DNA from: Clostridiisalibacter paucivorans DSM 22131
Lineage (GTDB): Bacteria > Bacillota > Clostridia > Tissierellales > Clostridiisalibacteraceae
Assembly: GCF_000620125.1 (NCBI RefSeq)
Contig: NZ_JHVL01000038.1
Span: forward strand, 1-34,603
DNA length: 34,603 nucleotides
Direction of reading: 5' to 3'
The notes beneath the pieces were generated by a model, which made no database searches, was not told where the DNA came from, and saw nothing but the letters and a program-made list of their open reading frames with translations. The stretch's first letter is position 1. Each line of letters starts with the position of its first letter. A program made the position numbers and the translations under genes. Shown one piece after another: positions 1 to 21,282 of the stretch.

Positions 1-104
1 AGTTAGTGGTTATTATTTAGTAGTTAGTGGTTGGTGATAGAAATCTTGCAGATTTCATCATTGGACTGGGAACTATTAACTAATACCTACTAACTTTTTT
101 TACT
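1..104. repeat. Heptad-armed hairpin repeat, copy 1 (cut by window edge)
   Basis: This intergenic element has a left arm of 7-bp units related to GTTAGTG/GTTAGTA, a core hairpin (GAAATCT at 40-46, loop TGC, AGATTTC at 50-56), and a right arm of complementary units ending in CTACTAAC plus a run of seven T at 95-101. It shares this architecture with 13713-13832 and 20876-21073. The left end is missing because the window starts inside it. Its function is unknown; the hairpin plus T-run could terminate transcription from the left. Confidence 0.7.
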
Positions 105-12497: not shown

Positions 12498-13697
12498 ATG
12501 GACAATAAAAAAGTACTTGATATTAATGAAACTGTAAAGTGGATAGGTATTTTAGATCCAAGTTTAGTAACCTTTGATGTAGTGATGGAGACAAAATATG
12601 GAACAACATATAATTCTTATTTTATTGATGCCGATAAAAAGGCTATAATAGAAACTTCAAAGGAAAAATATAAAACAGAATATCTTGAAAAAGTTAAAAC
12701 GGTAGTAAATCCTGAAGAGATTGATTATATAATTCTTAACCATACTGAGCCAGACCATTCAGGAAATTTAAGACATCTTCTAAGATTGGCTCCAAATGCT
12801 AAAGTTGTAGGGTCGAAGTCTGCAATTAATTTTTTAAAGCATATAGTAGATATTGACTTTGAATCTATAATAGTTAAGGATGGAGATACACTGGATTTAG
12901 GAAATAAAACATTGAAATTTATATCAGCTCCGTTTTTACATTGGCCTGATTCAATGTATACTTATCTAGAAGAAGATAAGACATTGTTTAGTTGTGATTC
13001 ATTTGGATGTCATTTTTGCGATGAAAGGATGTTTGATGATTTAGTAGATAATTTTGATGATGCGTTTAAATATTATTTTGATGTAATACTTAAACCCTTT
13101 AGCAAATATATGCTACAAGCTATAGATAAAATAGAGGGATTAGATATAGATGTTATTTGTCCAGGACATGGACCTATACTCAGAAGCAATTGGAAGAAGT
13201 ATGTAGAATGGTCAAAGGAATTATCCCAACCAAATAAAATAGAGAAAAAGCATAGGGTATTTATCCCTTATGTATCGGCATATGGAAATACTGGCAAGAT
13301 GGCAGAAAAAATAGCAGAGGGCATAAAAGAGTATGAAGATGTAGAGGTAGAGGTATCAGATATAGAAATGATGGATATATTTGATTTAGAAGAGAAGGTA
13401 GAAAAGAGTACGGCTTTAATTGTGGGTTCACCTACTATAAACCAAAATATATTATTACCTATTTATAAGTTATTTGCCATACTTAACCCTATAACCAACA
13501 GAGGCAAACTTTCAGCTGCATTTGGTTCTTATGGTTGGAGTGGAGAAGGAGTAGAGATAATAGAGAACAATTTAAAAAATCATAAATTAAAAGTTCCTAT
13601 GAAGGGATTAAAGGTAACATTTGTTCCCTATGAGGATACTTTTGAAAAGTGTAAAGAATTTGGCAGGGAATTTGGCAAGAAACTTATGGAAAAATAG
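12498..13697 (+). CDS. fprA: Flavodiiron protein (FprA-type A flavoprotein)
   Basis: A 399-residue protein with an N-terminal metallo-beta-lactamase-like diiron domain (about 1-250) and a C-terminal flavodoxin domain (about 255-399). Diiron ligands are visible in [10 protein letters not shown] (H-x-E-x-D-H), HWPDSMYTY, the Asp of SCDSFG and the His of CPGHGPI. FMN binding is indicated by [12 protein letters not shown]. These enzymes reduce O2 to water, and in some cases NO to N2O, protecting anaerobes, usually with rubredoxin as donor; there is no rubredoxin domain or gene here. It is monocistronic, with AGAAGGAGG before ATG 12498 and a Rex-like site upstream. Confidence 0.95.
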
Positions 13698-13712
13698 ATT
13701 ATATTTCTTGTG

Positions 13713-13832
13713 AAAAAAGTTAGTAGATGTTAGTTAGTAGATATTAGTTAGTGGTTAGTAGTTTAATGATGAAATCCATAAGATTTCATCCATCGACTAC
13801 TAGCTGTTAATTACGAACTACTAACTTTTTTT
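13713..13832. repeat. Heptad-armed hairpin repeat, copy 2 (complete)
   Basis: The element is bounded by perfect 14-bp outer arms: AAAAAAGTTAGTAG at 13713-13726 and CTACTAACTTTTTT at 13818-13831. Between them, 7-bp units (GTTAGTA, GATGTTA, GATATTA, GTTAGTG) run in register up to a core hairpin (GATGAAATC 13768-13776, loop CATAA, GATTTCATC 13782-13790). It begins 15 nt after the flavodiiron stop. The T-run means it could act as that gene's terminator. It is related to 1-104 and 20876-21073. Confidence 0.75.
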
Positions 13833-13927
13833 ATAGTAAAATTAAATTTAATAATTAATTTTGTAGTATAGACCAAGAAATAAACATATTATATACTTAT
13901 AATATAATTTATTTTTGGAGGCATTTT

Positions 13928-14605
13928 ATGGTTGTCGCAATGGGAAAAAACATATATGTGGATAATTTAAAAATTGAAGATGTATATGGTATGACTATGT
14001 GGGGAAAACATTTTGATCCGTTGTTTTATGATTATAATTTTCCTTCACTTGATCAAAGACAGGCAAAGGAATGGTTTAAGCTTAAGACCAAAAAAAGTAA
14101 CAAAGAGAGCTTTGGTATATATAATAAAAAAAATGATATAGTGGGATTTTTAACCATAAGAGATATAAAAAAAATAAGAAAGCATAGTACATTAGGTATA
14201 GTATTGGACCCCAATTGCTTAAATAGAGGTTATGGCACTGAAGCTATAAGATTGTTTCTAGACTATTATTTTGAAGTGTTGAAAATGAATAGTATGGATT
14301 TGCAAGTTGCAAAATTTAACAAACGGGCTATAAGATGTTATGAAAAATGTGGGTTTAGAAAGATAGGTCAGTATATTGATAAATATGAAAATCAAAAATT
14401 AGATGTATTTAGTAATAAATTAGAAAATATAAGGGAATCCTTTATAAGAAAAGATGGAATATTGTATTGTATATACTATGAAATGGAAATATCCACACAG
14501 AATAAGGGAACATTTGTGCATAACATTGTGGATATGTTGATAAGTTTCATAAAACCTTTAAAATTAAAGACTAAACTGTGGATAACTTTCAAATTACATC
14601 AATAG
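13928..14605 (+). CDS. GNAT family N-acetyltransferase with extended C-terminus
   Basis: A 225-residue protein. Residues about 5-170 match the RimJ/RimL-type GNAT fold: the LGIVLDPNCLNRGYGTEAIRLFLDYYF acetyl-CoA motif and the NKRAIRCYEKCGFRKIGQY motif B are clear. The last 40 or so residues (after about 185) look unlike a GNAT domain, and their DNA carries DnaA-box-like 9-mers (14489-14585), so the frame may simply have run into a regulatory site. GGAGG precedes ATG 13928; an in-frame ATG at 13946 is an alternative. The substrate (amino group of a small molecule or protein) is not predictable. Confidence 0.85.
   Translation: MVVAMGKNIYVDNLKIEDVYGMTMWGKHFDPLFYDYNFPSLDQRQAKEWFKLKTKKSNKESFGIYNKKNDIVGFLTIRDIKKIRKHSTLGIVLDPNCLNRGYGTEAIRLFLDYYFEVLKMNSMDLQVAKFNKRAIRCYEKCGFRKIGQYIDKYENQKLDVFSNKLENIRESFIRKDGILYCIYYEMEISTQNKGTFVHNIVDMLISFIKPLKLKTKLWITFKLHQ
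14489..14585. other. Cluster of DnaA-box-like 9-mers
   Basis: Five sites resemble TTATCCACA or its complement TGTGGATAA: ATATCCACA (14489-14497), TGTGCATAA (14515-14523), TGTGGATAT (14527-14535), TGTTGATAA (14535-14543) and a perfect TGTGGATAA (14577-14585). The first four each have one mismatch. They lie inside the 3' end of the GNAT frame, between two origin-proximal gene blocks. A secondary DnaA-binding site is inferred. Confidence 0.5.
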
Positions 14606-20875: not shown

Positions 20876-21073
20876 TAGTAGTATATGGTTCGTAGTTAGT
20901 AATCCTTAGATGAAAACCTACGGATTTTCTTAATTCTTTTATCAATAGGACAAGTTTAGTAGAAAAGTTCGTAGTTCGTAGCAAGTAGCCCATAGAAGAA
21001 ATCCTATAGATTTCTATATTATTTACTAAGAACTAAGAACTAAGAGCTAAGAACTGAGAACTAAGAACTAAAT
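20876..21073. repeat. Heptad-armed repeats between tRNA-Asp and tRNA-Thr (copy 3)
   Basis: This gene-free stretch holds two core hairpins of the repeat family: GAAAACC (20912-20918) with GGATTTTC (20922-20929), and AGAAATC (20997-21003), loop CTATA, GATTTCT (21009-21015). The second core is preceded by GTTCGTA, GTTCGTA, GCAAGTA (20967-20987) and followed by seven tandem 7-mers close to ACTAAGA (21025-21073). Arm sequences differ from copies 1 and 2, but the 7-bp register and the GAAATC/GATTTC core are the same. Confidence 0.7.
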
Positions 21074-21079
21074 AATCAT

Positions 21080-21205
21080 GCTGGTGTAGCTCAATTGGTA
21101 TAAGCAGAGAACCCAAATCTTCATTATGATTTGGTGTGAATCGCTTAGTACGGTACAATGAAGAGTTGACGAAAAGTAATTAAATAGTACAAAGTAAATA
21201 ATCAT
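21080..21205 (+). pseudogene. Partial tRNA-Thr duplication with inserted structured DNA
   Basis: The first 21 nt (21080-21100) match the 5' part of tRNA-Thr, with a proper GCTGGTG acceptor strand and D-arm start, then diverge. The preceding AATAATCAT is duplicated too, before 21206, so the unit repeats with a 126-bp period. The inserted part contains paired segments: CCAAATC with GATTTGG, and CTTCATT with AATGAAG. It cannot form a tRNA alone. Confidence 0.65.

Positions 21206-21282
<77 letters not shown>

Follow-up and report, generated by a model that had tools for sequence, protein, structure and literature searches.

A large family of heptad-armed hairpin repeats at gene ends in Clostridiisalibacter paucivorans

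The hairpin between two genes at 13713-13832

The window, the whole 34,603-nt stretch of DNA analysed, is one contig (C28) of the 3.25-Mb genome of Clostridiisalibacter paucivorans DSM 22131, which is assembled in 85 contigs. A long hairpin lies between two genes of the same direction. The upstream gene is taken here to be FprA-like and is referred to as fprA.

12498..13697, + strand: upstream gene with ODP/metallo-beta-lactamase and flavodoxin domains; its stop codon is 15 nt before the hairpin start
13713..13832, - strand in the family orientation: complete heptad-armed element; model match at 13730-13828, 103.8 bits
13768..13790, no strand: core hairpin, GATGAAATC (13768-13776)-CATAA-GATTTCATC (13782-13790), within the best-conserved part of the family
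13928..14605, + strand: downstream gene with a GNAT acetyltransferase domain; its start is 95 nt past the element

The layout given in the preliminary description, heptad arms around a core with A-run and T-run ends, is present. The hairpin is made up of A6 (13713-13718), a left arm of heptads, the core, a right arm of heptads and T7 (13826-13832). The region 13700-13850 folds at -46.8 kcal/mol (z -6.24), and none of 200 shuffles folds equally well. Two extra heptads and the A6/T7 ends lie beyond the model match. The 5' arm has two heptads more than the family consensus, and part of it folds as a small side hairpin. With up to three mismatches, the core pattern matches twice in the window (13765-13794 and 33-62) and never in 100 shuffles. 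The hairpin is confirmed as real and as a member of a large repeat family.

Family size and consensus

A genome search with the DNA of 13713-13832 gives 78 matches, many of which are one place found on both strands. A covariance model, R1, was built from 24 copies with 84% mean column identity; a duplicate (L022) and five irregular copies among the first 30 loci were left out of its alignment. Across the whole genome, R1 gives at least 150 matches with both strands counted, 150 of 3213 candidates having been scored. The absence of further copies had been named in the preliminary description as an outcome that would speak against a family, and a genome-wide search had been proposed. At 37.6 bits or more, the family occupies 136 distinct places in about 1.01 Mb of the 3.25-Mb genome (80 stretches and the window). 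This DNA (797,602 and 213,106 bases) was mostly chosen with the hit list known. Matches below 37.6 bits are omitted, and only the stronger strand is counted at each palindrome; the figure of 136 is thus a minimum for the whole genome rather than a measure of density. The copies appear unevenly distributed, with 27 on contig C1 (188 kb) and one in five 20-kb fill blocks that were picked with the hit list known (C42:1-20000, C2:20001-40000, C3:1-40000 and C7:1-20000).

In the family consensus, an asymmetric core, GTTGATGGTGGAAATC-CTATG-GATTTCATCATTAAAC, lies between two sets of four 7-bp units. Written out by hand in one orientation, its left half is AGTTAGTAG-TTCGTAG-CTAGTAG-TTAGTAG-TTGATGGTGGAAATC-CTATG and the right half that follows is GATTTCATCATTAAAC-TACTAAC-TACTAAC-TATTAAC-TACTAACT. 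Because the core is asymmetric, each copy has a direction.

Rfam models match the tRNAs alone in the window, with no family matching the element. At a lax threshold in loci L001 and L189, they give microRNA matches alone, far below gathering scores. A CRISPR was rejected, as it had been from the outset: the palindromes are single and scattered, and their 7-bp units are contiguous and without spacers.

Other copies in the window

Two further loci in the window had been assigned the same layout.

1..104, + strand: second copy, truncated where the contig begins; 83.5 bits, fold z -6.18
20876..20960, + strand: possible truncated left arm and core of another copy, recognised by eye; no model match
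20964..21057, + strand: third copy, decayed, between tRNA-Asp and tRNA-Thr genes; 50.4 bits

The first of these loci is a true copy. The second, 20876-21073, holds up in part: 20964-21057 is a decayed copy whose right side is extended into GAACTAA/GAGCTAA/GAACTGA heptads, whereas 20876-20960 is not matched by the model and the locus as a whole folds only modestly better than its shuffled versions (z -2.18, with 7 of 200 reaching its stability). Contig C16 ends in the reverse complement of window positions 1-100, and the sequences diverge beyond. This suggests two identical copies, both of which are at contig ends, where an assembly cause is possible.

Position of the copies relative to genes

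Positions relative to genes were counted for 93 copies with gene calls made by codon usage, in DNA that is 87% coding. None of the 93 has more than half of its length inside a called gene, and 23 overlap a called gene end, by 19 nt at most. Between same-direction genes there are 71 copies, between convergent genes 17 and between divergent genes one; the four copies at stretch ends are left out of these orientation counts. The window copy at 20964-21057 is counted as convergent only because the gene calls omitted tRNA genes. Gaps of at least 100 nt in this DNA, element gaps included, number 235 between same-direction, 19 between convergent and 39 between divergent genes.

The same-direction copies are generally closer to the upstream stop codon than to the next start (61 of 71; p 5e-10). 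The median gap between the stop and the model match is 21 nt, and that between the match and the following start is 121 nt. The stop is within 30 nt in 46 of the 71 copies, and the distance is zero or less in 15. The element has the direction of the gene in 48 copies and the opposite direction in 23 (n = 71; p 0.004). Since the heptads hold stop codons, open frames end at the elements and the gene calls lean towards a gene end. Nevertheless, four element-bearing genes, fprA, aspS, pyrG and tatD, are matched over most of their length by genes of relatives.

The base of the element stem is A+T-rich. At least six T in eight positions are found at the gene-strand exit in 28 of the 71 copies and at the other exit in 15, compared with 12.7% of random intergenic 15-mers. 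The mean T content of the two exits, 4.59 and 4.61, does not differ (Wilcoxon p 0.94). An additional terminator-like hairpin is found past the element in 7 of 57 cases; among genes without an element, 62 of 287 are followed by such a hairpin, a weak difference. A bias towards gene ends would also be expected of a purely selfish element with no role in ending transcripts, if insertions elsewhere were removed. The equal mean T content and the separate terminator beyond some copies (7/57) agree with such an element; the roughly threefold enrichment of T-runs at the gene-strand exit (28/71 vs 12.7%) argues against it.

Distribution among relatives

All of the relatives searched belong to other families, and Clostridiisalibacteraceae is represented by this genome alone. 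Among 59 other genomes of the order, no clear family copy is found under strict filters. R1 matches six of 60 order genomes, its own strongly and five weakly. The weak matches (L061-L067) are heptad palindromes of other wording and were rejected as family members. The exact core pattern has no match in the named-genome collection, from which records very near this genome may have been left out, and none in viral contigs. A strict heptad pattern occurs in five of 299 genomes of the phylum sample and in three of 150 of the order sample, with this genome included in each.

Of 35 loci retrieved for the comparison at fprA, 12 from relatives were taken further. In six of six relatives, a strong hairpin directly follows the stop codon and the element is absent (Caloranaerobacter azorensis, L132; Anaeromonas, L134 and L138; MAGs, L133, L140 and L164). 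By eye, four of the six hairpins have a clear T-run; L133 and L164 look near-identical. In the window, this hairpin is absent and the element starts 15 nt past the stop. Terminator-like hairpins lie downstream of aspS in 13 of 25 relatives, at a site that holds the element in this genome. That the relatives' hairpin is missing at fprA and aspS where the element sits is a second point against a purely selfish element. Insertion is inferred here without an empty site from a close relative, because the relatives are all from other families.

Downstream of tatD, a terminator-like hairpin is found in four of 25 relatives, with three loci (L279, L282 and L296) misread by the script; in many of the relatives' loci the next gene directly adjoins. 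Further 7-bp arrays lie near tatD at L281:2346-2393 and L280:1331-1376 (TCTCTGT and CTATTCG units), in two genomes of one other genus, and seven period-9 arrays are present among the tatD loci. Among 21 relatives, the pyrG 3' end carries differently worded heptad arrays in G009 and G011, identified by regular expression, and GTACTNG-type units are seen by eye in G007 and G023.

L263 and L267: heptad arrays at the pyrG 3' end in other families
L257 and L258: the same, recognised by eye

Heptads at gene ends thus recur across the order in different words, and the family itself is not seen there. The arrays at pyrG (two by expression and two by eye, of 21) and the other-wording palindromes in L061-L067 could point to native terminators that lengthened where they stood through 7-bp slippage, with no transposition. 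Independent growth would not be expected to give the core and arm sequence that the copies share, at a median of 80% identity over 3,488 pairs, and this origin is improbable.

Heptad arms and common descent

Tandem arrays in 797,602 bases of DNA, chosen largely around family copies, have a period of 7 in 58 cases; periods of 5, 6, 8, 9, 10 and 11 occur 0, 0, 1, 1, 1 and 1 times. The 7-bp arm units vary in number and wording between copies and between the two arms of a copy. For example, the left arm of the copy at L079:917 is built from TTAGTTC/TTAGTTA-type units and its right arm from CTACGAA/CTACGGA units, and the copy at L088:15170 has a long TTCTTAG array in the left arm only. These changes in number and wording look like slippage of 7-bp units. 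Heptad arms also surround other cores, GGGGGCACTAGCGCCCACC at L083:19159-19261 and GGGACGCCCACGTCCC at L064 of a relative, so this type of arm is not tied to one core.

In the 67 copies that score at least 80 bits, mean identity is 87.5% to the consensus and 79.9% between pairs, near the value for a star (76.6%). Median identity is 80% in the 3,488 copy pairs aligned over at least 75 nt. After the pair with 100 identical nucleotides, the closest pair is 95% identical over 77 nt. Single changes at consensus pairs of the 67 copies keep a G-U pair in 152 cases and break the pair in 107 transitions and 190 transversions. Double changes leave the position paired in 34 cases, compared with 21.8 expected, and unpaired in 11. 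Change on both sides is found at two of 28 consensus pairs in the 24-copy alignment. Judged by these substitutions, pairing is favoured weakly at most, and common origin accounts for most of the shared layout.

The first reading of the window held that the architecture seems kept as the sequence drifts, and this is supported in part: the copies descend from one ancestral sequence (87.5% identity to the consensus), gain and loss of 7-bp units make up much of the change in wording, and pairing is at most weakly favoured. A regulatory RNA family with its structure under selection would account for the deep fold, the excess of paired double changes (34 vs 21.8) and the surplus of G-U-keeping changes over pair-breaking transitions (152 vs 107). 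It is hard to reconcile with 190 pair-breaking transversions in 67 copies, with two-sided change at only 2/28 pairs in 24 copies and with the lack of any Rfam match, and it has little probability. Near-star decay and weak structural constraint do suit the purely selfish element introduced above. Taken with the points at the T-runs, fprA and aspS, that reading is unlikely, though it retains appreciable weight.

Ends of the element and candidate movers

In the fullest copies, the element continues into additional inverted ends, with the by-eye consensus GATTGTTGACAAACATACAGTTATAATGACAAAGGTATAAAAACAG. In the extracted DNA, the best matches to this consensus adjoin heptad elements (best 80 of 399). 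The outer 24 nt, with up to three mismatches, occur at two places in the genome, each at a heptad element; the 34-nt outer-end pattern has no match in the genome. Among 74 fully flanked copies, an outer end exceeds the 99% shuffle threshold on the left in 12, on the right in 17, on both sides in two and on either side in 27.

The copies at L092:5882, L084:15942, L120:16338 and L208:1359 are each flanked by an imperfect direct repeat, about 17-25 nt long and resembling a terminator hairpin, with one side more intact. Direct-repeat scans skip copies with heptad flanks or incomplete flanks and cover 111 of the 136. With 120-nt flanks, 9 of the 111 copies score 26 or more, compared with 2.7 expected; with 60-nt flanks there is no excess (one case of at least 24 vs 0.67 expected). 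Only three of the nine top cases are of the hairpin type, and the top case, L125:3629 (score 38), is of another type. The repeat at L120:16338 scores 23 in the 120-nt-flank scan and 25 in a separate scan. Several copies with good outer ends, such as those at L091:14241 and L077:6959, are outside the best direct-repeat cases. Target duplication by the element is suggested by these repeats but not established.

The element shares several features with MITEs. It is short (about 100 nt, longer with outer ends), non-coding and present in many copies (136), and its paired heptad arms form terminal inverted repeats. A related autonomous transposon with the same ends was not found in this genome, whose 85 contigs could let a collapsed element escape.

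The preliminary description suggested a Y1/REP-type enzyme as a possible mover. One long candidate gene is present, which we take to be RAYT-like.

L072:1048-1869: full-length Y1_Tnp gene, 274 aa, flanked by GGGGTCAGGCTCACCTTTAAAC-type repeats

This suggestion is not borne out. The flanks of the L072 gene are another repeat, GGGGTCAGGC..., and R1 has no match in the 3.3-kb locus. The loci searched around the other seven Y1 matches hold no family copy (best 20.9 bits, L069). That the element is of the REP type and is mobilised by a Y1 (RAYT) transposase with GTAG and a hairpin as its recognition site is accordingly very improbable: there is a long Y1_Tnp gene, GTAG recurs in many heptads (TTAGTAG, TTCGTAG and CTAGTAG) and, in the text cited, many REPs begin with GTAG (PMC2817692), but the long gene lies between GGGGTCAGGC repeats at a locus without the element, the other seven loci are empty of it, and at about 100 nt or more the element is longer than the REPs described in that text (PMC2817692). 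Closely similar IS200-like pieces lie at the contig ends L069, L070 and L071 and are a possible cause of assembly breaks.

Comparison with known repeats

No description of this family appears among the titles listed by searches of open-licence PubMed Central papers. The comparisons here are with each system as portrayed in the excerpts of the papers cited. The nearest in behaviour is the SPRITE of Streptococcus pneumoniae, a short A+T-rich interspersed hairpin with AAAA/TTTT ends near gene 3' ends (PMC3049150). It is favoured between convergent genes and is suggested to have been co-opted as terminators, and its target duplication could not be established (PMC3049150). The heptad element is likewise a hairpin with A-run and T-run edges at gene 3' ends. 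The likeness is one of description: the SPRITE has an 18-bp stem and another host, whereas the heptad element has a longer stem, 7-bp modules and an asymmetric core.

The BrickBuilt MITE of Porphyromonas gingivalis is intergenic and is constructed around tandem repeats; both inverted ends are present in 4 of 19 copies, and predicted terminators or polyadenylation sites adjoin 10 of the 19 (PMC4596501). As described there, its 23-nt unit forms a tandem block between leader and tail in 19 copies, whereas the units of the heptad element are in both hairpin arms. Terminator-like MITEs are also named in a review (PMC10969869).

Heptamer arrays are reported from Beggiatoaceae, Cyanobacteria, Bacteroidetes, Xanthomonas and Nostoc (PMC4679880, PMC4853749, PMC4692102) and from Geobacter (PMC2700814). 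The unit is TAACTGA in the first three groups (PMC4679880) and G-rich in Xanthomonas and Nostoc (PMC4692102), and these arrays are largely intergenic. Their length and wording differ between relatives, and slippage tied to unit size has been proposed (PMC4679880, PMC4692102). By our own comparison, the TAACTGA unit resembles the TAACTAC/TAACTAA of the heptad element. In these excerpts, the arrays are direct and, in the BOGUAY genome, mostly just upstream of starts, whereas the heptad element has paired arms and lies at gene ends. REP/BIME sequences with a RAYT are extragenic palindromes, usually in more than 100 copies, and many REPs begin with GTAG (PMC2817692); as portrayed there they are much shorter than the heptad element, and the Y1 gene of this genome has no heptad element at its flanks.

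Interpretation

The family is probably a lineage-specific, non-autonomous, palindromic dispersed repeat of the MITE/SPRITE-like kind that settled at gene ends and often forms a 3'-end hairpin. The two readings first offered for the hairpin, a terminator-like repeat and a mobile hairpin, both fit the family. From sequence comparison we infer that the element may move and may act as a terminator. It would have spread by transposition, with machinery that was not found here. In favour of such spread are the lack of a clear copy in 59 other order genomes under strict filters, the pair identical over 100 nt, the near-star divergence and the imperfect direct repeats at four copies. Copies behind stop codons may have survived because insertion there does no harm. 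Given their long stem and the A and T runs at the edges, such copies could form 3'-end hairpins that serve as intrinsic terminators on either strand or protect mRNA ends. At some genes, the element may have replaced the terminator that was there before, and slippage of 7-bp units during replication would renew the wording of the arms.

The comparison at fprA and aspS illustrates how gene ends may come to include a repeat as a standard component. With its strict 7-bp modularity, the family lends itself to asking why heptamers are over-represented among the longer tandem units of bacteria, and its many copies offer natural replication for studying how long A+T-rich hairpins affect transcript ends.

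A second repeat family

A second repeat family, R2, is about 47 nt long (AAGCAGAGAACCC...GTGAATCGCTTAG) and has a conserved hairpin. No Rfam family matches it.

21066..21227, + strand: R2 between direct repeats; core at 21102-21148, repeats at 21066-21100 and 21192-21227
L096-L102 and L104-L109: further R2 loci
L304:6183-6227: R2 in a phage

A left arm ending in GTTGATGG precedes R2 at 7 of 13 loci listed. R2 follows a 5' fragment of tRNA-Thr in the window, of tRNA-Cys in L104, of tRNA-Lys in L108 and, read in antisense, of a 5S rRNA gene in L107. At these four loci, a complete target recurs 39-56 nt past R2. The length of the direct repeats is about 36 nt at tRNA-Thr, where they hold the tRNA leader and 5' part, 39 nt at tRNA-Cys, 23 nt at tRNA-Lys and 24 nt at the 5S rRNA gene. 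No direct repeat surrounds R2 in L105 and L109. R2 is also found inside heptad elements, with repeats of 37 and 43 columns in L098 and L099, but adjacent heptad arms are alike in any case.

A speculative joint reading, which we consider doubtful, is that the heptad element and the unrelated-looking R2 both enter structured nucleic-acid sites and produce direct duplications roughly 17-43 nt long without a transposase of their own, by an undescribed, hairpin-targeting kind of movement. The heptad element would then act as a mobile substitute for terminators, with 7-bp modules that each lineage rewrites. The structured sites, on the same doubtful footing, would be intrinsic terminators, the 5' parts of tRNA-Thr, tRNA-Cys and tRNA-Lys, the 5S rRNA gene and the heptad hairpin. 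In the tRNA-Lys version of R2 and in the phage version, which lies inside an open reading frame (L304), the stem is changed on both sides.
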